A program made the position numbers and the translations under genes. The notes under the pieces are model-generated. The model saw nothing but the letters and a program-made list of their open reading frames with translations. It made no database searches and was not told where the DNA came from. Of a stretch of DNA of 64,000 nucleotides, positions 22,601 to 51,900 are shown one piece after another. The DNA lies in NCBI GenBank assembly GCA_030062745.1, contig CP099849.1, positions 21,936,144 through 22,000,143 on the forward strand, given 5' to 3'. Each line of letters starts with the position of its first letter. The first letter of the stretch is position 1. The DNA is from Capitulum mitella. Lineage: Eukaryota > Arthropoda > Thecostraca > Pollicipedomorpha > Pollicipedidae.

Positions 22601-25600
22601 CAAGTAGGAGACATCAAAACTGACAATATCAACATTATGAAAGATGCAATGAAATACATGCATGATTCTAAATAGTTTTTGCACACAAGACTGCAGGTAC
22701 AACAGTGCTAACTGGTAAACATACCACCACAAAACATAATGTTACTTACCAGCTTGATAAATCCAAATGCTTTTTCCAGGTTAAGGTATGGCTCAGCTGT
22801 TTCTCCAAACACTTTGAACATCTCCTGGAACTCTTCCATACTGGTTCCATCTGTCAGATTGCCAACAAACAGCCTGCATTTGTTTGTGAACTTCTTCGGC
22901 TCCTTGTCCTCCGAAACCGGAAGGTCATAAGTAGGCCCGGATATACTCTGCAGTTTCTCCATCAGACGATCCTGCAAGCAACATCAAGCATGCCACAGTT
23001 TAGTTATACTTTGCTGCTGTATTCAGTCTAATGGGCAACATAATTCCTGTACCACATCACGGCAAGGAGTTCCATCGCTTTTAATCTTTTAGATCAATTC
23101 CTAATACACAGTATGCCTCGAAGTTGTACTTCAAGGAGATTCCCCGCGAATTTCCCGTATCATTTTCAACAGTCCTACTGTCAACTGTTGCAAGATGTCA
23201 CGATCCGACAAGTGCCAAAGAACATTTGCCACAGACCCTTACAGAGTCATACCAGCAGTAGCCCAGGACTAAAGAAAGCAGCTTTTGTCCATTTACACCA
23301 TTTATTTCCCCTCATTTAAGTCTTTTAATGCACTGGGCACCATTTTTCAAGTCAAATCTATTCACAATTTCCTTTCTTCCTTTGCCATATTTCCAGGGGA
23401 CAGCAACAAAGCCAAATAATTTGTCCAATATGTTGAAGTCTCATGACTTTCTGTCAGTGACAACCAGAGGGGTTGCAGGAGTGCACTACGAGGGGCAGTG
23501 GGATTACAGGAGTGCATTATGCACTTGCAACATTTACCAGCCTTGTTCAAGACTGTACATTTATAAAACAAAAACAAAAGCAAATGTAGTGTGCTGAGAC
23601 ACAAACCTTTGATCATGGAACTTCCCTTCTGAGTTTAGAACCAATTATAATCCCTGCACACAGGTATAACCACTCCCATGTGGACAAAGCCACAAAGTCA
23701 CTTCATTTTATGAAGTTCATACAATCTCTGTTTCCCAACTGCATATGTAAGTGTGTCTCAATGGGCACTGCCTGAGATGTGTTTCAATGGTAGCCTGTTG
23801 CTCATGATAACGTTAATCACGAACAGTGCCAAAACTCTGTATGTTGGGATGGCACGTTTTGGCCTTGGCACCTCAGCAAGATGCAAAAAGTTGTCTGTGA
23901 AGTCAAATTTAGATTTAATTTCATTCATTTTTGCCTGGCATGGCTTAGCCTGGATCAACCAGGATTAAGCTGGGGGCAGGGGGATGGTAAGCTTGCCCCT
24001 ACCCCCTCTCAGCCAGGATTTTTGCTCTTCAAATAAGAAAGTGTGGATTTGCAAGGGCCAAGGAGCAAATCTGATCTAGTTCTTTGTTTTTCTTTTACCA
24101 TATAATGTAGCCAAAAAAATATTCCACACCATTTTTCATCTTGTGACCATACCTAGTGGCCAAAATAGGACAACAAAGGCAGGATTTTAGGCGTCTGCGT
24201 CCCTCCCGTTATTTGGAATCCTGTGTCCCTCTGACATTTTTTCGATACATGGCAAGGGATGGTCGAGGAGACTCTGCCCCTTGTAGTGTCCAAAAAATTT
24301 CTTGCCAGCTTAAGCTAGATCCCCTTGGGCAGTTACAGGGGCACTTTTGGTGGTGTCGGCCGTCTGCCGCGTCAGGACCCTAGTGATGTCAGGCTCCTTT
24401 TACATTTTCACGTGTACCTTCGAACGTCTCAGGCGCTCGTCTGGCGGTTTCAAGGGACACATCGGAATGTTTCGCGGACCTATCTGGCAGTTTCAAGGAT
24501 GCTTTGGCCATTTCAGGATCCCTTCTGTTGTCCTTAGGACATTTTTGCCATCAAGGAGCCTCTCAGGCAGTAAAAAAGGGCCCTCTATAAGGTCAAGCAC
24601 AGAGGTCGTTTGGCCATTTCAAGGAGCCACCTAGACATGTGAGTTTAGTGGTTTCATGGGCCCTTCTGGTCATCTCATAGGCCCTTATACCTAAAGACTG
24701 CTTGTTAATGGAAGCACCTCTAGCAATCTCAGTGGATTTCCTGTTGTTTAAGGTGTCCCTCTTGTCATTCCTAGCAAACATTTTTGCCATCTCTGGGGCC
24801 CTCTGGCACTTACAAGACCTTTCAGCGGTCTCCAGGCCTCAGTGCAGTGTCATGGGCCCCCTCAAGTCTCCTGGGGTGCTCATGGCTGTATCAGGGGGCT
24901 TTCTCTGTTACATGGGGTATATCAGGCAGTCTTAGAGCCCCTCTACCCAAATCAGGGACCTTTGATGACACTGCAGGGGATGCACTGTTAATCTCAGGGG
25001 ACCTTTTCCATGCTGGGAGGCTCCTTAAACATTCAGGGCCCCTCAACATCTACAGGCCCCTTAAGCTGTCTTACCAAACCCTTATCTCTGACTTACAGGG
25101 GCCCCTCTCACCCTTTTGGCAGTCTCAGGGGTCCTCTGCCTTGCAGAAATCCACCTTGCCATCTCAGGACCCACCTGATTTTCCCAGGGCCCCTGATGGC
25201 AAAAAGGGACATCCTGATGGCATCAAGAGCCCCTCAAATTTCCAAAAGTCAGTACAACCCATTTGGGGCCCCTCTTGAGGTTGAGAAGGTAACTCATGAG
25301 TTGCTATTCAGGGGGCCTCTCTGACTAGCCAGAGGTTCCTTTTGCCATCCTGGGCACCTAGTCTTGGCATTTAGGCATTTAGTCTTGCCATCTCAGGCCC
25401 TGGCACTTTCAGCAGTCTCATGGACCCTTTCCCATGCTGGGGCTGCTCTGCAGTCTCAGGGCCCTTGAGGTTCCAGAGGCTTTTCTATCCATCTTAGAAG
25501 TTATCTTGCCATCTCAGGACCTCATTACCCCCACCACCCCACCACTGCCCCAAGGCCCTCTGACTGCAATGAGAACCTTCAGCTTTTCACACAGGCCTAT

Positions 25601-26145
25601 GAAGTCCATTTGGGGAACCAATATTCCAGGGCCCTGGCACCTTCCTCAGGACTCAGTAATTGTATTTGCCACCTCAGGGACCCTTCTCACAGTCTCATAA
25701 GCACTCTGCAGTGATGAGGTCCTGCTATGGTGTTAGGGATTTCATTGGGAATTCCAGGTGCCCTGCTATCTATCTCAGGGCCCACCTAGCTCTCCCAACT
25801 GTCCCTTTAGTTTTTGTTTCATTTTGTTTGATATTCTCCAATTCTGTATCAAGAATTTCTTTCCCAGACAATTTAATTCACTGATTTTTAACTAGAACAT
25901 TTATGCATTTCTTTAAAATTATAACTGCACCTTACTATATTTTTGACTAATTACAAAATCCATACAAACTTGTTTCTTTCCAAAACAATTTACATTGCAT
26001 ATTAGTTATTTCCAAACCTTTTTCATTACTCTGGCTCAGACCTAAAAAAAAAAAAAAAAATATATAAATAAAAAAAAATAAAAAAAAAAAAATAAAAAAC
26101 CCTTTTTTTATATTTTTTTGGTTTTTAAAAAAAAATTTTTTTTTT

Positions 26146-26183
<38 letters not shown>

Positions 26184-26262
26184 TTTTTGTTTTTTTTTTA
26201 TTTTTTTTTTTTTTTTTATTTTTTTTTTTTTTTTTTTTTTTCCTTCATTTAAAACTTTTTTT

Positions 26263-26309
<47 letters not shown>

Positions 26310-27479
26310 CTTCCCAACATTAATAAATATTTTGAAGACCCAAAAAAAGGGGACAAATTGGTAATCCTTACCGATCGCACACCATGCGCAGAGTCGAGGG
26401 TAAGGTTAACGCGCGAGTGTAGTTTCCGATTTCGCCACCAGGGTGATATTCGTTCTTTTTCTCGCCGCTAGGAAGAGTACGTAAAAATACTGACATTCGC
26501 TAGGATGGTTCCGCTCAAGAACCAATGGTATGATAACCAATAGTTCGATTCGGCTGATTCGAACGCCAGTTGATAGCGCCGAACGTTTCGTTTCTGTGAC
26601 TTACACACTTTTACTTTTGACCCGCTGATGACGTCACAGGTGAGGTCAATCACGAAAAAAGGACCACTTTCTCCAGAATTGCCGAACTTCGATGGAAAGC
26701 AGATGAATTCGTTCAGACCAGACCTAACCTAACCTAACCTAACCTAACCTAACCTAACCTAACCTAACCTAGCCTAGCCTAACCTAACCGAACCTAACGA
26801 ATATTACCCTGGTGGCGAAATCGGAAACTACACTCGCGCGTTCTTGAGCGGAACCATCCTAGCGAATGTCAGTATTTTTACGTACTCTTCCTAGCGGCGA
26901 GAAAAAGAACGAATATCACCCTGGTGGCGAAATCGGAAACTACACTCGCGCGTTAACCTTACCCTCGACTCTGCGCATGGTGTGCGATCGGTAAGGATTA
27001 CCCAAATTGACACTTGGATTCACTTTTACACATTAATTTTTATCCTTCCGAAACTTCTTGTTGGAGAACGGGATCTCGGTGGAGCAGCAGGAATTAACAC
27101 AACTGTAACAGAGCCAATTCACTTTTCCATATAAAATGCACATAATTAAGTTTAAAAAAGAACTGCACTTAGAATTTAAATACTAAAACCACATGCTCAC
27201 CTCAGGGTTCCTCGAGCCGCCCATACCTCCTCTTCCTCCGCGAAAGCCGCCACCGCGACCTCTGTACTCCCCACCACCACGCCCTCCACGAAAGTCTCCA
27301 CCTCCACGGCCACCCCTGAATTCTCCACCACCACCACGTCCCCCACGGAACTCTCCACCTCCACCTCCACGGCCGAAGCCAAACCCACGGCCCCTGCCTC
27401 CTCTGCCACGGAATCCTCCACGGGGACTTCCCATGTTATGAACGTCTCCGTTACCGTTGTCCATAACTGCTTCTGCCAT
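16464..27479 (-). CDS. DBHS-family nuclear RNA-binding protein (NonA/NONO/SFPQ-like), nine coding exons
   Basis: Full gene span; exons are listed separately. Joining nine exons with GT-AG junctions and matching phases gives 548 residues plus a stop. The order is: RGG-rich N-terminus (about 15-93), RRM1 (about 126-195, RNP2 CRLFVGNL, RNP1 KAFGFIKL), RRM2 (about 200-268, TSLKVKRL and GEGILEFA), NOPS (about 270-325, EDDEEEGL then PRFAQPGTFE), a charged coiled coil (about 315-430), and a Gly/Pro/Arg tail ending FPNKRPRMF. This order is specific to DBHS proteins: dimers that bind RNA and DNA in the nucleus and act in transcription, splicing, RNA retention and, in vertebrates, paraspeckles. RGG tracts at both ends resemble insect NonA more than vertebrate NONO. 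I see no frameshift or internal stop in the joined exons. The exact paralogue name is uncertain; most arthropods have one gene of this type. Confidence 0.93.
16635..19749 (-). other. DBHS gene intron 8
   Basis: 3.1 kb between donor CAG|GTAGGT and acceptor CGTAG|. A G-run lies at 18657-18665. No nested gene or repeat element recognised. Confidence 0.7.
19750..19787 (-). CDS. DBHS gene coding exon 8 (38-bp micro-exon)
   Basis: Acceptor TTGCAG| and donor CAG|GTAGGT enclose 38 nt encoding GGMGRGGRGGGQ with the split Gly codon from exon 7. Both phases fit. Skipping it would put exon 9 out of frame (38 is not divisible by 3), so it must be included to reach the RGG tail. Confidence 0.82.
20131..20278 (-). 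CDS. DBHS gene coding exon 7
   Basis: Acceptor CTCCTGCAG| and donor ATGG|GTGAGT. Encodes ANELSNLLDQQDPVIWG followed by a Gly/Pro-rich stretch. Short leucine-rich segment just after the coiled coil, then low complexity. Ends in phase 1. The intron on its 3' side is 343 bp. Confidence 0.86.
20614..20991 (-). CDS. DBHS gene coding exon 6 (NOPS end and coiled coil)
   Basis: 126 codons, from acceptor TTGCAG| to donor ATGAAG|GTCAGC. Starts with VGPRFAQPGTFESEYGSRW, the conserved NOPS-to-helix junction of DBHS proteins. It then continues as an almost pure Glu/Arg/Gln/Lys/Leu heptad-like helix (DRRxxLEEEMQRRQET type) to QENQLFMK. This helix drives DBHS polymerisation. The strong codon bias (GC at third positions) makes both strands open, which explains several overlapping spurious frames. 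Confidence 0.95.
21246..21354 (-). CDS. DBHS gene coding exon 5 (NOPS)
   Basis: Acceptor TGGCAG| and donor GCTCG|GTAAAT. With two bases from exon 4 it reads ESLCPVEVEALKEDDEEEG and on to KKHQEYRRERS. The acidic EDDEEEGLCEK block is the signature of NOPS, which wraps RRM2 of the dimer partner. Confidence 0.94.
21661..21791 (-). CDS. DBHS gene coding exon 4 (RRM2, second half)
   Basis: Acceptor GTTCCAG| and donor ACAGA|GTGAGT. Encodes LERAVVVVDERGKSTGEGIL and on to SSFFITE. ERAVVVVDERG and the RNP1-like GEGILEFAKKP are diagnostic of DBHS RRM2. Ends in phase 2. Confidence 0.94.
22160..22330 (-). CDS. DBHS gene coding exon 3 (RRM1 end, RRM2 start)
   Basis: Acceptor GTTTTCAG| and donor GGTGAG|GTAAGG, phase 0 at both ends, 57 codons. 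Contains the end of RRM1 (ALNGTQRNGRLLKVRFSAM) and the start of RRM2 (TSLKVKRLSPWVSNELLELAF). The VSNELLE.AFSVFG segment is near-invariant in DBHS proteins. Confidence 0.95.
22750..22971 (-). CDS. DBHS gene coding exon 2 (RRM1)
   Basis: Acceptor GCTTGCAG| and donor AAGCTG|GTAAGT, 74 codons, phase 0 at both ends. Begins DRLMEKLQSISGPTYDLP. Contains RNP2 (CRLFVGNL) and RNP1 (KAFGFIKL) of RRM1. Confidence 0.95.
24315..25800. repeat. Degenerate ~33-bp minisatellite in DBHS intron 1
   Basis: Dozens of diverged units built on CTTGCCATCTCAGGGGCCCCT, with spacing about 30-36 bp. No two adjacent units are identical, so the array is old. The same unit type occurs at 50545-50760. Confidence 0.75.
26044..26309. 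repeat. Poly(A)-rich then poly(T)-rich tract
   Basis: About 57 bp of A-rich sequence followed by about 205 bp of near-pure T. This is long enough to pair as an A/T hairpin, and is also a likely site of sequencing or consensus error. It adjoins the fold-back element but is outside its inverted repeats. Confidence 0.8.
26354..26359. repeat. Target-site duplication CAAATT (left)
   Basis: Immediately left of the 163-bp inverted repeat and matched by CAAATT at 27003-27008. Confidence 0.6.
26360..27002. mobile_element. Fold-back element with 163-bp inverted repeats and internal AACCT telomere-type array
   Basis: A 643-bp element. Arms at 26360-26522 and 26840-27002 are inverted copies in which I find no mismatch, and 6-bp direct repeats (CAAATT) flank them. 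Between the arms: a CRE-like TGACGTCA at about 26630; 8-9 exact AACCT pentamers and several variants at 26723-26795, equal to TTAGG on the minus strand; and a direct ~45-bp copy of part of the right arm (about 26798-26840). There is no coding frame. Perfect arms imply recent insertion or conversion. The class is not certain: long-TIR MITE, fold-back element, or a subtelomeric fragment mobilised by a DNA transposon. Confidence 0.8.
26723..26795 (-). repeat. Interstitial TTAGG telomere-type repeat
   Basis: Tandem AACCT with a few variants (AGCCT, AACCG). TTAGG is the ancestral arthropod telomere unit. Here it is the core of the fold-back element rather than a chromosome end. Confidence 0.85.
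27003..27008. repeat. Target-site duplication CAAATT (right)
   Basis: Matches 26354-26359 and abuts the end of the inverted repeat. Confidence 0.6.
27201..27479 (-). CDS. DBHS gene coding exon 1 (start codon, RGG domain)
   Basis: ATG at 27479 (MAEAVMDNGNGDVHNMG...), with A at -3 and G at +4 (AGGATGG), gives a good initiation context. Donor CCTGAG|GTGAGC. Residues 18-90 are FRGGRGGG-type repeats, encoded by a degenerate ~27-30-bp in-frame repeat. RGG tracts bind RNA, are targets of arginine methylation and favour condensate formation. 93 codons, phase 0. Confidence 0.92.
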
Positions 27480-28581: not shown

Positions 28582-29495
28582 TCATCTGTCGGCAACACGC
28601 ACGCGCCTGGGTACGCGCACCAGCATTTTACGCGGTATCTCTAGGTCCAGAGCAGCGATCACCTGGCTCATCCAGCGCTTTAGGGCGACTTTGGATGTTA
28701 CGTACCAGGCTCCCTGATACATCCTCTGCTTAATGCTGCCCCAGATGTCCTCAGTAGGACACACCTGGTGCACAAAGGGGGACTGCTGTCACGCACTACA
28801 TACGGCACTCTGGGCTCTTCCAGCAACTTGAGCGTTTTCTTCGCATAATGAGCACTGGCCAAGTCTGGCCAGATCAACATGTCCCTCTCGAAACAGTACT
28901 CATCCAAATATGGAATGAGCACATCTCCTACGCACTTCTCACGGTACGTGTTACCATCAACATTACCCATACCCGGCATGATAGCCGACTTTGTCACACC
29001 CCTGAGAGAGATGGCGGGCCACACGAAACGATTAGGGGGAAACTTGCTCTCTGGCCTCAGTTGTACTTTTGCTGGACTTCTGCTGGACGTGCTCCAACAG
29101 AGTACCCAAGGTTTCCTGACATATACCTCTCGTGGTAGGTGAAGTAGCTTTCGTCGTCCATGGCAATGTCCCGTTCTTTCCGATTTCATGTGATCCGCGT
29201 GACAGTTTCCGGGTGCGGGTCTTTTGGGCGACCTCTTGTTTTTGGTTGACCTGGGGTGACCTCTTGCTCTTTCGGTACCGAACCTTGTTTGCCACCAATA
29301 TTTTTTGTCACGTACGTTCTGGAGATTCCAAACCTTCCAGTCGGAACGCGTTATGACACCCGTTGTTTTTACAGCTCGAATCAGCTGTAGCTGTCTTAAC
29401 ACGCGCACTAGAATGGGGGTCTTTTTGTGCCCCCACCTGCTCTTCTTGAATATCTCGAGAACGCATCTGAGCTGGTTGCTGTTACTCTGTGACAT
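28582..29495 (-). pseudogene. Broken Tc1/mariner-superfamily transposase
   Basis: Three catalytic-motif segments are readable but lie in three different frames, which shows at least two frameshifts. First D in MDDESYF (Asp codon 29155-29153), second D in WPDLASAHYAKKTL (28865-28863), Glu in PTEDIWGSIKQRMY (28752-28750). Spacing is about 96 residues then about 37, giving a DDE catalytic triad of the IS630-Tc1-mariner type. NRFVWPAIS and NVDGNTYREK.V fit the usual WG.IS and YI..V segments. The N-terminal helix-turn-helix part is too decayed to read. Terminal repeats of this inner element were not found. Confidence 0.8.
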
Positions 29496-29705: not shown

Positions 29706-30150
29706 CCAAGGCCACAGCCAGGGTCAATAAGGGTTAAGGGCATCAAAGGTCAAGGTTTGTGACCTGATCCAGATTTGCTTTGCAAGATGTCAGGTTGTAT
29801 GAAATATGCATTCGAAGGCCCTAATAAAAACACGTTTGCGCACACTGATACGCTTACATATTCCAAGGTCAGTGAAGGTCAAGGTCGTTAAAGGCCAAGG
29901 TCAAATATCTTGTAACCTTGCTCAGATTTCTTCTGCGACATATCGATTTGTATGAAATATGCATTCAAAGACCCTAATAAAGACACGTGTGCGCACATGC
30001 AGACGCATATATATATTGCAGAGTCATTTCAGGTCAAGGTCATCAAAGGTCAAGGGCAGGTTTCTGAGACCTGGTCCAGATTTGTTTTGCAATACATCGA
30101 TTTGTGTGAAATACGCATTCAAAGACCCTTATAAAACACGTTTGGCATAT
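29706..30150. repeat. Three ~150-bp tandem units rich in AAGGTCA
   Basis: Units share CCAGATTTG.TTTGCAA, TGTATGAAATATGCATTC and AAGACCCTAATAAA, at about 29770, 29920 and 30075. Between them are runs of GGTCAAGGTCA and CAAAGGTCAAGG. TCAAGGTCA is the extended half-site of NR5A/ERR-type nuclear receptors. Lies inside the hAT-like element. Confidence 0.75.
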
Positions 30151-30750
30151 TGATACTGACATGTATATACATAAATAGCTATACATACATACAGAAATAT
30201 AAACGCTGGAAATGACCAGATGTACCGATGTTGGCTACCTTCACTGAAAATACGCCAAAAGATACATGTCGCGCCCTCATTTGCTCTCAAACTGTCCCGT
30301 GTTGTTCGAAATCTGATCTGTAAAAGATGAAAAAAATGACGTCACAGGTCATTGACCTGACATGACCTCGACCCAAAATCCCCAGTCAAGACGCCAAATG
30401 AATGGAAGTTATCGTATTCCACGTTTTAACGGCCCAACAAACACCCCGTTTCGTTCGAAAAGTTATACGGAATGGCCTGTACAAGCCGACAAAGTGTCCA
30501 AAGTTGACCTTTTCCACCCCATTTGGCCTTGAAAATATCGACTCACAAGCTGTGGGCATTTTTTTACTAATTTTTCAGTTTCCCATATTTTTCTTTTCTA
30601 TTCAGTCTTTCCGGTTTCATTATTTCAAGAGAAATAGTAAACAAAAACATGTAAACATAATATCCGGTATCCGGCCGGATATCCGGCACCCCGATCCGGC
30701 ATATCCGGTATCCGGCCGGATCACAAAAATCCCGATCCGGTGCATCCCTA

Positions 30751-30758: not shown

Positions 30759-30999
30759 TTTAAGCATCCTGAGGACGCGGTTTGTATGAGTTCTCATGGC
30801 TTGAGATTTCCGAATATTATTGTGGGGGGGGGGGGAGCACGTAGGATTTTAGACCGTTTCATTCTAGCCACTGCCGTAGGCCTAATGCTAAAATCTCTGA
30901 ATATTGGGGTCCGGGCCTCCTCTCCTTGGGATCTCCAGCCTTGTAATTACAATCGTGTCACAGAGGGACGTTGTCAACGCCAGTACGCCAGGGACTCGT

Positions 31000-32223
31000 T
31001 TAACCCTATTCCCGGAGGGCTAGACGGTATGGCCGATTCCCGGCAGGGGGGGGGGGCGGATTCGGCCCCCCCCCTGAGATCTCGAGAACTACTTATCCGA
31101 TTTCATCGCAACAAACGGCAATCGATTTGCCGTGACGTGAACTACATTTTTATAAAAAGAAATTTCCAAAATTTTAAAATTTGTGGATACAGGGGGACAA
31201 AAATGTCAAAATGGGGGGTATTTTTTGACTTCTTATAACTCCGTTGTTTATGGACCGATTTCGATGAAATTGGCATCAATCGAGAGATTATGAATAGGGC
31301 TTTTACCATGGGTATGCAAATTTGAAATTTTGAGAAAATTCATGGGCGTTCACAGGGTTTCAAAAATAGGGGGATTAGTTTTCTAATAACGAAATGAACA
31401 AAAGAGGCCAAAACACTTTTTTAGCTTCTGCTAGTCATGTTATGCTAAAGAAGTACAAATCGCATTACAATGTTTGTATAATGTTAGCATAGGCGGTGCC
31501 AGGGACTTAAAAAAGGGGGAACTGTCATGGTCACACGTTCTTCAGATCAACTTGTGACCTTTGACCTTAAATGACCTCCAGTGACCTTGGGGTCACCTGG
31601 AATGATGTCGTGTGCATTCAATATTGTCTAAAAACGTTTTTAATCGATTAAAATCACTCTATTCCAAAAAATTCATTTTTTGACTTTTGCGATATAGGGT
31701 ACGTGCACTGACATTTTAGGTCATAGCTCCGTGACCCGACCTGATATCAAGCTGAAACTTGGTACACAAGTAGAGGGCATCTTTCTACGTCATATATATT
31801 CCGGGTTTGGCATTTGAAAAAACGGCGCCGAAATTATTGCGAAAAAACAAATTTTGACTTTTGACCTTGACCTGACCTTGTAAAGTGACCTCAGATAAAC
31901 AAAATTACATATGCACATTGCCCAACTATTTAACTATATACTCATATAAAGTTTTAAGTTCTATCTTAAAAACTCTATTCTTGGCAGACATTTTCCTTTT
32001 ACCCTCAACATGGCCAAAAATGACCTGAGGTGTCTCCCAAAAACGTTGCCTGGCTCCGCCCCTGAGCAAAATAGAATTTCGAAATTTTGTCACGGCGCGT
32101 AGAAGGAATAGCTAGGAAAAGTCACCAAGTTTCGTGAAGCTGCGTTAAAAAGCCTGGAATTGGCAAGCAAAAAACCCGAGGGGGGGCGGATTCCGCCCCC
32201 CCCCCTGCCGGGAATAGGGTTAA
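31000..32223. mobile_element. piggyBac-like non-autonomous element, copy A (TTAA-flanked, 1216 bp)
   Basis: TTAA at 31000-31003 and 32220-32223 bound an element starting CCCTATTCCCGG and ending CCGGGAATAGGG. TTAA duplication plus CCCT-type ends are characteristic of piggyBac. Inside each end is a C/G homopolymer hairpin (GGGGGCGGATTC...GCCCCCC). There is no long reading frame, so it would need a transposase in trans. The interior holds a DR1 motif at 31555-31567 and further TGACCT half-sites. Copy B is in the same orientation 4.9 kb away. Confidence 0.85.
31555..31567 (-). promoter_or_regulatory. DR1 nuclear-receptor motif in copy A
   Basis: TGACCTTTGACCT, that is AGGTCA-A-AGGTCA on the minus strand: a perfect direct repeat spaced by one, the consensus for RXR/HNF4/COUP-TF-type receptors. 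Conserved in copy B. Confidence 0.55.
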
Positions 32224-35754: not shown

Positions 35755-35859
35755 CAGTGGCGTTGATTCGTATTGCTTTGAGAGGGCCCTGGCCCACCCA
35801 GTGTTGGTTCGGGCCAACCCATTGTTGGTTTGGACCTCCCCCAATATTTTCTGCCGGTT

Positions 35860-37079
35860 TTAACCCTATTCCCGGAGGGCTAGACGGTACGGCCAATTCC
35901 CGGCAGGGGGGGGGGGCGGATTCGGCCCCCCCTGAGATCTCGAGAACTACACATCCGATTTCATCGCAACAAACGGCAATCGATTTGCCGTCACGTGAAC
36001 TACATTTTTATAAAAAGAAATTTCCAAAAGTTTGAAATTTGTGGATACAGGGGGGCAAAAATGTCAAAATGGGGGGTACTTTTAGATTTCTTATAACTCC
36101 GTTGTTTATCGACCGATTTCAATGAAACTGGCATGAATCGAGAGATTATGAATAGGGCTTTTACCATGGGTCCACAAATCTGAAATTTTCAGAAAATTCA
36201 TGGGCGTTCAAAGGGTTTCAAAAATAGGAGGATTAGTTTTCTAACAACTCAACGAGCAAAAAAGGTAAAAACACTTTTTTGGCTTCTGCTAGTCATGTTA
36301 TACTAAAGAAGTACAAATCGCATTACAATATTTGCATAATGTTAGCATAGGCGGTCCCAGGGGCATAAAAAAGGGGGAACTGTCATGGTCACACGTTTCT
36401 CAGATCAACTTGTGACCTTTGACCTTGAATGACCTCAAGTGACCTTGGGGTCACTTGGAATGATCTCCTATGCATTTAATATTATCTTGAAACGTTTTCA
36501 ATTATTTGAATTCACTCTATTTCAAAAATTTCATTTTATGGCTCTTGCGATATAGGGTACGCGCACTGACATTTTAGGTCATAGCTCCGTGACCCGACCT
36601 CATATCAAGCTGAAACTTGGTACACGAGTAGAAGGCACCCTTCTACGTCATATATATTCCGGGTTTGGCATTTGAAAAAAACGGCGCCGAAATTATTACG
36701 AAAAAACAAATTTTGACTTTTAACCTTGACCTGACCTTGTAAAATGACCTCAGGTGGACAAAAGTACATCTGCACATGGCCCAACTATTTACCTATACAT
36801 CCATATAAAGTTTTAAGTCCTATCTTAAAAACTCTGCTTTTGGCAGACATTTTCCTTTTACCCTTAACATGGCCAAAAATGGCATGAGGTGCCTCCCAAA
36901 AACGTTGCCTGACTTCGCCCCTGAGCAAAGTAGAATTTTGAAATTTTGTCACGGCACGTAGAAAAAATAGGTAGGAAAAGTGACCAAGTTTCGTGAAGCT
37001 GCGTTAAAAAGCCTGGAATTGGCAAGCAAAAAACCCGAGGGGGGGCGGATTCCGCCCCCCCTGCCGGGAATAGGGTTAA
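35860..37079. mobile_element. piggyBac-like non-autonomous element, copy B (TTAA-flanked, 1212 bp)
   Basis: TTAA at 35860-35863 and 37076-37079, the same CCCTATTCCCGG / CCGGGAATAGGG ends as copy A, and close similarity throughout with scattered substitutions. Its insertion splits the MITE at 35755-37470; the related empty site at 56638-56641 has a single TTAA at the matching point. Confidence 0.88.
36413..36425 (-). promoter_or_regulatory. DR1 nuclear-receptor motif in copy B
   Basis: TGACCTTTGACCT retained exactly although surrounding bases differ from copy A. Confidence 0.55.
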
Positions 37080-49571: not shown

Positions 49572-50071
49572 NNNNNNNNNNNNNNNNNNNNNNNNNNNNN
49601 NNNNNNNNNNNNNNNNNNNNNNNNNNNNNNNNNNNNNNNNNNNNNNNNNNNNNNNNNNNNNNNNNNNNNNNNNNNNNNNNNNNNNNNNNNNNNNNNNNNN
49701 NNNNNNNNNNNNNNNNNNNNNNNNNNNNNNNNNNNNNNNNNNNNNNNNNNNNNNNNNNNNNNNNNNNNNNNNNNNNNNNNNNNNNNNNNNNNNNNNNNNN
49801 NNNNNNNNNNNNNNNNNNNNNNNNNNNNNNNNNNNNNNNNNNNNNNNNNNNNNNNNNNNNNNNNNNNNNNNNNNNNNNNNNNNNNNNNNNNNNNNNNNNN
49901 NNNNNNNNNNNNNNNNNNNNNNNNNNNNNNNNNNNNNNNNNNNNNNNNNNNNNNNNNNNNNNNNNNNNNNNNNNNNNNNNNNNNNNNNNNNNNNNNNNNN
50001 NNNNNNNNNNNNNNNNNNNNNNNNNNNNNNNNNNNNNNNNNNNNNNNNNNNNNNNNNNNNNNNNNNNNNNN
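49572..50071. other. Assembly gap (500 Ns)
   Basis: Exactly 500 N, the conventional placeholder for a gap of unknown size. Frames that read through it are meaningless. Confidence 1.
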
Positions 50072-51900
50072 AAGTGTCATCCAGAGATGTCGGATGGAAG
50101 ACACTAGGGTGCCCTTGGCGAGTTTGAAACCACAAAATGTTGCAATGTTGCATGTGCGCGATAATCGGGATGTGTGCACGACTCGTTGTAATAGAGGTCA
50201 AATTTGACCCGATCTTTGACCCTGATCTTGTATGACTTCGGGTCTGAATATCAGACTGAGCTGTGGGAACATATTACCAAGCAAACTTCAGCCTCGTTCT
50301 TATTTTCTTTTTTTGTGATTTAACGGCTCTGGAGAAAATCGTCAGTTTTTTGCGCTTGACCTGACCTGTGACGCCATCAGCGGCCCGAAAGACAAAAAAT
50401 GCGTAAGACACAGGACCGCAAGGCTCGGCGCTGTCGTTTGCCGTGTGAATGAGACGAATTAGACGACTGACTCTCGAAGTAGACAGAGGGGAGGAGGCAT
50501 TAAAGGCCCCTCCCACAGTCAATGGAAGGTGGCGAAAAAAATCCAGTCAATACTGGGTATAGTTCTTGCCGTCTCAGGAGCCTCTCTCGCATTTTTAGCG
50601 GTTCGTGGACCCTTTGCCGTATTGGGGCCCCTCTTGCGGTTCCAGGGGCCCTTGAAAAGTTTCATGGACCCTCCTGTTCATCTTAAAGCCCATCTTGCCG
50701 TCTCAGGGTCTGATTAACCATCCCAGAAGCCCTCTGACTGCATCATAACCTGATCATCAGCTTCGATTCGAGTGCTCTGGCCATCAGAGGGCTAAACAAA
50801 CAAAACGGATATTTTTCCTTTTAATTCAATTGTAAATCCTTAACCAGGAACCATTTGGAATCTTCTGCCACGCGCAACAGCTGGAGAGGTTAAAATCGAG
50901 CCTCTCTCCTTCATATCTCAGAAACTGGGATTCCAGTCAACATGATTCAAACGGCAACAAAAAGATGTGTCTTTCTCATCTCAAATGTCAGACATAGCTG
51001 ACGATCGGGGGATGGGGGGGATGGGGGTCGGATCCCTTCTGTATTCAGGGATTTTAGCATAAGGTCAACAGTAATGACTGGAAAGGAACGTTATGAAATA
51101 CAGTATGATCCCGTCTCCCCTCCCCCACAATAAGTTTCGGGGAATCTCCAACCATGGCCATAGGTCACGACAATGTGCAATGCTTAACGTCTGGCATCTA
51201 GATCTAGGAAGCGTATCATTTATTTTTTATTTTATTTTTGCATTGAAGGCTCATCCACATAGCATGACCGAGGTCACTGGGGCTCTGCTCGAGCCCGAGT
51301 CAAATGATTACGAACTGTCAACGTGGAAGCGCTCTCATGACATACGACATACAATGAGATGTGTATATACAGGGTTATACGATAAGATCGGCATTGTGGC
51401 ACAAAAAATAGAGTCAAGAGCACTTAAACACACATGGGCGTCATCATCATTGAACAGTACTTGAGGCTGTCACCAGACGCCCCTTCAGAGCGCGTTTGAA
51501 ACACACCACGGACATATCTATGAACTCGGGCAGCAGGAAATTGTAAAAAAGGCTCACGGTACAAGAACTGCCTCTTACCGGCAGCGGAGCCCCTGATGCT
51601 TAGCAGGCTTAACTGGTTATCTTGCCTTTTGCTCTTTGCAAGGCCTGGTCGCTCGCTGCTTCCAACGAAAAATGTAGCCAATGGTTGGGGCTCACCAGTT
51701 CGGCGGATTTTATGCAACATTGTGAAGGTCTGGCGTTGAAATAGGCACCGGTGGCTCCAGCCATCCCAAACCTTCTCGCACGCCTGATATGTGATGAAAT
51801 CTGCGTTTACAAGAGATCACACAAGCGGCAAAATTTAGTATTTTTTGCAAGTCAGCCAAGTTTTTGCCAGACCCATTACCGTACACTGTCAGACATTAAC
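50072..51900. other. Intergenic; short minisatellite at 50545-50760
   Basis: The 50545-50760 stretch has 6-7 units of the CTTGCCGTCTCAGGGGCCC type, the same family as in DBHS intron 1. No gene recognised. Confidence 0.45.

Follow-up and report, generated by a model that had tools for sequence, protein, structure and literature searches.

The palindrome and its host gene

The window (the whole stretch of 64,000 nucleotides that was analysed) carries on its minus strand a gene of the DBHS type, with the start codon at 27479. The first coding exon (27201-27479) encodes a Gly/Arg-rich N terminus and ends at 27201; the second (22750-22971, minus strand, splice sites placed by eye) holds the start of RRM1 and closes a host intron of 4,229 bp. 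This second exon matched PDB chains of SFPQ, PSPC1 and NONO (best E-value 9.6e-12). A Pfam search with the same exon brought no family to the 0.001 level, and a NOPS domain was detected in a downstream exon of the gene (Pfam, E-value 4.5e-9). Judged by these matches, the DBHS label of the host gene is sound. The palindrome that is our subject ends about 200 bp into the intron. A previous reading of the window, made from the sequence only, had placed it inside the first intron of a DBHS gene, and this placement is correct, the intron being the first coding one, between exons 27479-27201 and 22971-22750.

The element begins with a 163-bp left terminal inverted repeat (26360-26522, plus strand), which starts with GGTAATCCTTACC and has an imperfect palindromic tip, GGTAA-TCC-TTACC. 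It is followed by a core (26523-26704, plus strand; element positions 164-345) that is common to the arms of long fold-back relatives, by a short junction filler (26705-26721, plus strand, delimited by eye) containing ATTCGTTC, which also occurs at arm positions 89-96, and by an array of AACCT pentamers (26722-26798, plus strand; 15.4 units, 94% match) that reads TTAGG on the sense strand of the DBHS gene. Next comes a partial extra copy of the arm (26796-26842, minus strand) covering arm positions 49-95, 98% identical over 47 bp to 26908-26954. It adjoins the inner end of the 163-bp right terminal inverted repeat (26840-27002, minus strand), and at their join, inspected by eye, arm copy and arm end have the letters AAC in common. 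The two arms are exact reverse complements at 163 of 163 positions and are separated by a spacer of 317 bp. The hexamer CAAATT flanks the element on both sides, as left (26354-26359) and right (27003-27008) target-site duplication. Thus, the mismatch-free 163-bp arms, the CAAATT flanks, and the AACCT run with a partial arm copy between the arms are all present as the sequence-only reading had described them. The longest stop-to-stop frame contained in the element is 86 aa. When the 25 longest of 100 inverted pairs in the 64 kb were considered, this palindrome was the sole pair not of low complexity.

Several other features were observed in the window. On the minus strand, 28698-29495 holds an open frame of 265 aa with no Pfam match, which we take to resemble mariner. 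At 29757-30156, a unit of about 153 bp stands in 2.6 tandem copies. Two direct repeats of about 1 kb (30999-32116 and 35859-36975) lie 4.86 kb apart, with pieces 90-97% alike; perhaps they are the ends or copies of another mobile element.

A young, many-copied family

The genome that we searched comprises 477 Mb in 16 contigs. A 171-bp arm query returned 245 candidates; among the 40 that were scored, identity was 100% at six places including the one in the window, and the remaining full-length matches listed were at least 98% identical. The core query (the region of element positions 164-345) gave 512 candidates, of which 40 were scored. The 28-bp arm end, allowing up to two mismatches, had 202 matches in the genome (100 forward, 102 reverse), compared to none for the reversed control. 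Pairing of arm ends was done on 100 of these 202 matches, all free of mismatches, and inverted pairs less than 15 kb apart were counted. At least 36 such pairs were found among the 100 matches listed, and 28 arm ends had no partner among them. Most pairs (29 of the 36) span 575-643 bp; the other spans are 463, 483, 4,871 and 11,058 bp and, in three cases, 1,942-1,947 bp.

Besides the copy in the window, 35 further copies were examined. All of them come from the best-scoring list rather than from a random sample, so that the youth and completeness of the copies are overstated. Both arms are present in 31 of the 35, which together with the window makes 32 paired elements, 575-654 bp long and with arms of about 163 bp. 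Of the other four, three are the left ends of long elements, and the fourth is a copy (L050) with a homopolymer smear in place of the right arm; its 8-bp duplication, CTAGTCCT, is still readable by eye.

These elements are short, bounded by inverted terminal repeats and devoid of coding capacity, and they exist as many near-identical copies with target duplications (6-9 bp, one mismatched, in 27 of the 32 paired elements). The palindrome in the window is therefore one copy of a young, many-copied, non-coding mobile family. The family is new and of a familiar kind, that of fold-back MITEs. The sequence-only reading had proposed a young mobile palindrome and had set against itself two outcomes, arms occurring only once and a segmental duplication lacking target duplications. 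The 245 arm candidates, the 202 arm-end matches and the near-identical copies bear the proposal out; the arms are not single copy, and the duplications in 27 of 32 elements speak against the second outcome for the family.

Target duplications, age and quality of the flanks

Among the 32 paired elements, the flanking duplication is an exact 8-mer in 20, an exact 9-mer in four and an exact 7-mer in one. In one further element it is an 8-mer with one mismatch, in the window it is 6 bp long, and five elements have none. None of the 20 exact 8-mers has T as the first letter or A as the last. CAAATT is the only 6-bp case. Consequently, the 6-bp flanks reported earlier are indeed present in the window but do not represent the family, whose norm is mostly 8 bp and in some copies 9. 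The window's shorter duplication may result from the loss of two bases, either in the DNA or in the assembly.

Compared two by two, the 32 paired copies differ by a median of 3.3%. Between the copy in the window and its nearest relative, L040, 2 of 633 aligned sites differ; for L042 the count is 3 of 618. The two arms within an element are identical in two of the 32, the window and L049; this comparison was ungapped, and the counts for L054 and L072 are inflated by indels.

Immediately left of the element, outside it, lies a smear of dense A and T homopolymers (26044-26330), unlike the rest of the window, which possibly represents a base-calling or assembly fault. Since this smear adjoins it, the left flank deserves less trust than any other part of the window element. 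When the window was divided into 300-bp tiles, a homopolymer content above 25% was reached in the smear and nowhere else. In 54 loci, 4 of 2,335 tiles exceed this value; one pair of them coincides with the smeared arm of L050, and the other pair lies in L052, 1.7 kb away from the element there.

Long relatives and the origin of the short form

In three loci (L046, L060 and L062), the similarity to the window element covers positions 1 to about 345 and stops there, giving way to other sequence that these loci have in common; second elements located beside L058 and L064 behave alike, with this same other sequence beyond about 345. The long element of L060 measures 4,871 bp and stands between GTTTGTGA and GTTTGTGT; its arms, about 1.5 kb long, are 92% identical, and it contains tandem units of about 189 bp. 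A long-arm query gave 721 candidates; several of the 40 that were scored form inverted pairs at distances of about 3 to 12 kb. Long arms partly composed of tandem repeats, the hallmark of Foldback elements, are thus seen in the 4,871-bp relative, and the copy in the window corresponds to the outer arm only. Reading from its left end, the window element consists of 345 bp of arm, filler, AACCT tract, arm piece 49-95 and 163 bp of the other arm. With this composition, the window element appears to be a short, rearranged derivative of a long fold-back. We infer that the long form gave rise to the short one and that the short form was born once. The window also holds a decayed relic (50169-50459, minus strand) akin to the core and arm sequences of the long fold-back family, with 76% identity over 132 columns and 71.5% over 281 columns. 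The relic lies just beyond a gap of 500 N (49572-50071).

The three pairs spanning 1,942-1,947 bp were considered as a candidate autonomous form, and this was rejected: the one of the three that we read, L100, proved to be a copy of the MITE that carries a nested insert of 1,343 bp at 352-1710. An 8-bp repeat, TGGAAAGC, stands on both sides of the insert, whose ends are GGCTAACAGTAAG and GGTCAACAGTAAG. By its sequence, the insert reads as a nested transposon with TTAGG-type arrays of its own. L100 as a whole is flanked by a 9-bp duplication, CATTGTGGG. The near-equal length of the three pairs, one of which was read, suggests that MITE and insert were moved together as one unit.

The AACCT tract

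A run of at least two perfect AACCT units is present in all 32 paired copies, in keeping with the mobile palindrome with a telomere-repeat core of which the sequence-only reading spoke, and the longest run varies from 2 to 9 units. The tract sits in one and the same junction, GTTCAGACC ... AACGAAT. A fixed pattern fits 25 of the 32 copies, and the other seven keep the junction but depart from the pattern by about one letter each. The AACCGAACCTAACG end is common to the window, L040, L042, L043, L047, L058 and L067. In L047, it is an AGACC unit that has expanded in place of AACCT. This growth of AGACC, along with a tract length that differs between copies, fits slippage of pentamers, which would make telomerase unnecessary.

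It had also been suggested that the element derives from subtelomeric DNA. The copies listed lie at least 0.24 Mb from contig ends wherever the end position is known. Exact (TTAGG)12 was matched 452 times, counting overlaps, at dispersed places in the genome, and the reversed control not at all; among the 100 of these matches listed, none is at a contig end of known position. No telomere array was found at 16 ends of 8 contigs, where there were at most 9 AACCT or AGGTT per 5 kb and one N in the parts read; the assembly may lack telomeres. With the listed copies inside contigs, a short, slippage-like tract and dispersed (TTAGG)12, the subtelomeric origin is unsupported.

Discussion

We consider it very probable that the palindrome is a recent non-autonomous fold-back MITE that was rearranged from a long fold-back element, is moved by a transposase of the Mutator/Foldback type and carries a tract varied by slippage. 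According to this schema, a long fold-back element would have been rearranged such that one end retained 345 bp of the long arm and the other end 163 bp. The gap would then have been closed by error-prone repair, leaving behind the filler, a short AACCT tract and the 47-bp re-copied piece of the arm. The ATTCGTTC of the filler, equal to arm positions 89-96, and the AAC at the join of the arm copy, both noted by eye, might be traces of template switches during gap repair. Recognition of the shared arms would fall to a transposase encoded elsewhere, for which the Mutator/Foldback type is the most likely, and this enzyme would move the whole unit by cut and paste, producing the 8-9 bp duplications, and pentamer slippage would later have altered the length of the AACCT tract. 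Some observations do not sit easily with the schema: five of the 32 paired copies have no duplication, and a search for arm similarity in the 3.2-kb loci around the six genome hits of the MULE domain (PF10551) linked no transposase gene to these arms.

Two alternatives concern the palindrome as such. The homopolymer smear beside it could point to a sequencing or assembly artefact, and inverted duplicates are described, in the excerpt of the source available, to degrade nanopore base calls (PMC7229812). However, the same build recurs in 31 of the 35 other copies, on many contigs, with an exact duplication of 7-9 bp in 25 of the 31 other paired copies, and the 400-bp flanks of all 31 are free of smears. 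In view of these 31 clean copies, the smear as a fault of inverted repeats is at best a weak, possible link, and an artefact is scarcely credible; for the family, the chimera about which the sequence-only reading had cautioned is refuted. The other alternative gives the element a regulatory role in the DBHS gene, as a functional RNA hairpin that is edited or diced. It lies within a coding intron, some 200 bp from its start, and its transcribed strand has a predicted fold of -424 kcal/mol compared to a mean of -191 for 20 shuffles. The 163-bp perfect duplex proposed earlier for the pre-mRNA is thus reproduced by folding, but this follows from the perfection of the arms: the fold only restates them and would be expected of any perfect palindrome. 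The family is, moreover, present at many places in the genome. We regard the regulatory hairpin as highly improbable, and any effect on DBHS, such as ADAR editing, cutting by Dicer or nuclear retention, would be a matter of prediction from the modelled fold.

The remaining two alternatives accept the mobile element and differ in what moves it or in how the tract arose. The fold-back build, the duplications of 8-9 bp and the palindromic tip match arthropod MULEs, Tm1 and Tetris, and for this reason the Mutator/Foldback-type assignment is probable by analogy; the duplications are exactly 8 or 9 bp, within the 8-10 bp of Mutator, in 24 of the 32 paired elements, that of the window copy being 6 bp. 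The hAT superfamily makes duplications of strictly 8 bp. The present family departs from this, as four of the 32 elements have exact 9-bp duplications for which an 8-bp reading fails. Merlin transposition, on the other hand, makes duplications of 8-9 bp, and a transposase of this or another such superfamily might be the mover. The Merlin-type domain PF12762 has 36 hits in the genome, one of them about 0.6 kb from the family copy at L054, in a transposase-like IS1595/Merlin-type frame (at about 20-940) starting about 70 bp away from that copy. By rough arithmetic, chance would place one such neighbour within 1 kb about once in 200 cases. Yet the frame lies outside both arms, which form a complete short copy, and the combination of long repeat-built fold-back arms, palindromic tip and 8-9 bp duplications is the pattern of arthropod MULEs (PMC5225508), also seen in Tm1 (PMC3169594) and Tetris (PMC4079207), as far as the excerpts of these reports go. 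We therefore hold a mover other than Mutator/Foldback to be decidedly unlikely, although the frame near L054 does count against our preferred reading. As for the tract, the birth of the short form may have involved a double-strand break at which AACCT was seeded by telomerase or captured from telomeric DNA; in that case the MITE would now spread telomere-type seeds. On the minus strand, proceeding from the right arm inward, the end of the arm copy, ...ATTCGTT, runs straight into TTAGG, with overlapping letters and in the direction in which telomerase extends a 3' end (by eye). Repaired breaks in mammals can acquire short telomeric inserts, often with such overlaps (PMC7215372, from an excerpt), and AACCT is given as the major telomeric repeat in penaeid shrimp in the excerpted part of PMC7878876. 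Nonetheless, the arm itself holds TTAACCTTACC, so local sequence could supply the seed; pentamer expansion has also struck AGACC; (TTAGG)12 is dispersed throughout the genome; and the 16 contig ends were read without meeting a TTAGG telomere array. The telomeric seeding of the tract is therefore possible but doubtful. One may go a step further and imagine that the whole short family was born by telomerase-made TTAGG repair of a cut fold-back transposon, and that its spread scattered telomere-type seeds growing by slippage, including a hairpin in a gene intron; we think this unlikely.

On our preferred reading, the element is a clear and recent example of how a long fold-back apparently becomes a MITE: the junction can be read in 32 of 32 paired copies, and long relatives persist. 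The telomere link is the one remaining point of interest in the family. The element also shows one route by which telomere-type pentamers reach interior sites, namely as transposon cargo, and the copies would permit dating of the growth of the tract as well as a test of telomerase seeding.

Relationship to known elements

Literature searches on fold-back elements or MITEs together with TTAGG yielded nothing that we recognised as this family, and the arm 10-mer in combination with TTAGG and telomer had no match; neither result shows the family to be unpublished. Pattern scans of viral contigs for the element gave 0 matches. The 30 bacterial stretches matching an 18-mer were dismissed as chance, their best matches to the element being only 20-29 bases.

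The following comparisons draw on excerpts of the respective publications. The MULEs of Aedes aegypti have duplications of 8-9 bp and, in 12 of 14 families, arms longer than 100 bp (PMC5225508). Among them, Muta1 resembles the present family in its 10-bp imperfect palindromic tip and its more than 300 putative non-autonomous derivatives (PMC5225508), but differs in having 12-bp subterminal repeats and a known transposase, compared to repeats of about 189 bp in the long form and no linked transposase here. Tm1, a Mutator/Foldback group of root-knot nematodes, has composite arms of variable length, MITE-like forms and duplications of 8-10 bp (PMC3169594); these are mostly 9 bp, whereas ours are mostly 8, and one Tm1 group encodes a putative transposase. 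The microsatellite-carrying transposons of penaeid shrimp likewise bear growing simple repeats (PMC7878876), but they belong to another genome, in which AACCT is the major telomeric repeat, and the likeness is one of description. A further likeness is with Tetris, a fold-back element of Drosophila virilis, and its related MITE DAIBAM: they are non-coding, have internal tandem repeats and duplications of 8-10 bp, include a MITE with the same arm ends and, in the excerpt of the report, are without an autonomous copy found (PMC4079207). By reasoning similar to ours, its authors suggest that Tetris belongs to Mutator (PMC4079207). Against this background, to which our family is likened by description only, the AACCT tract and the re-copied arm piece are the marks of the short form described here.
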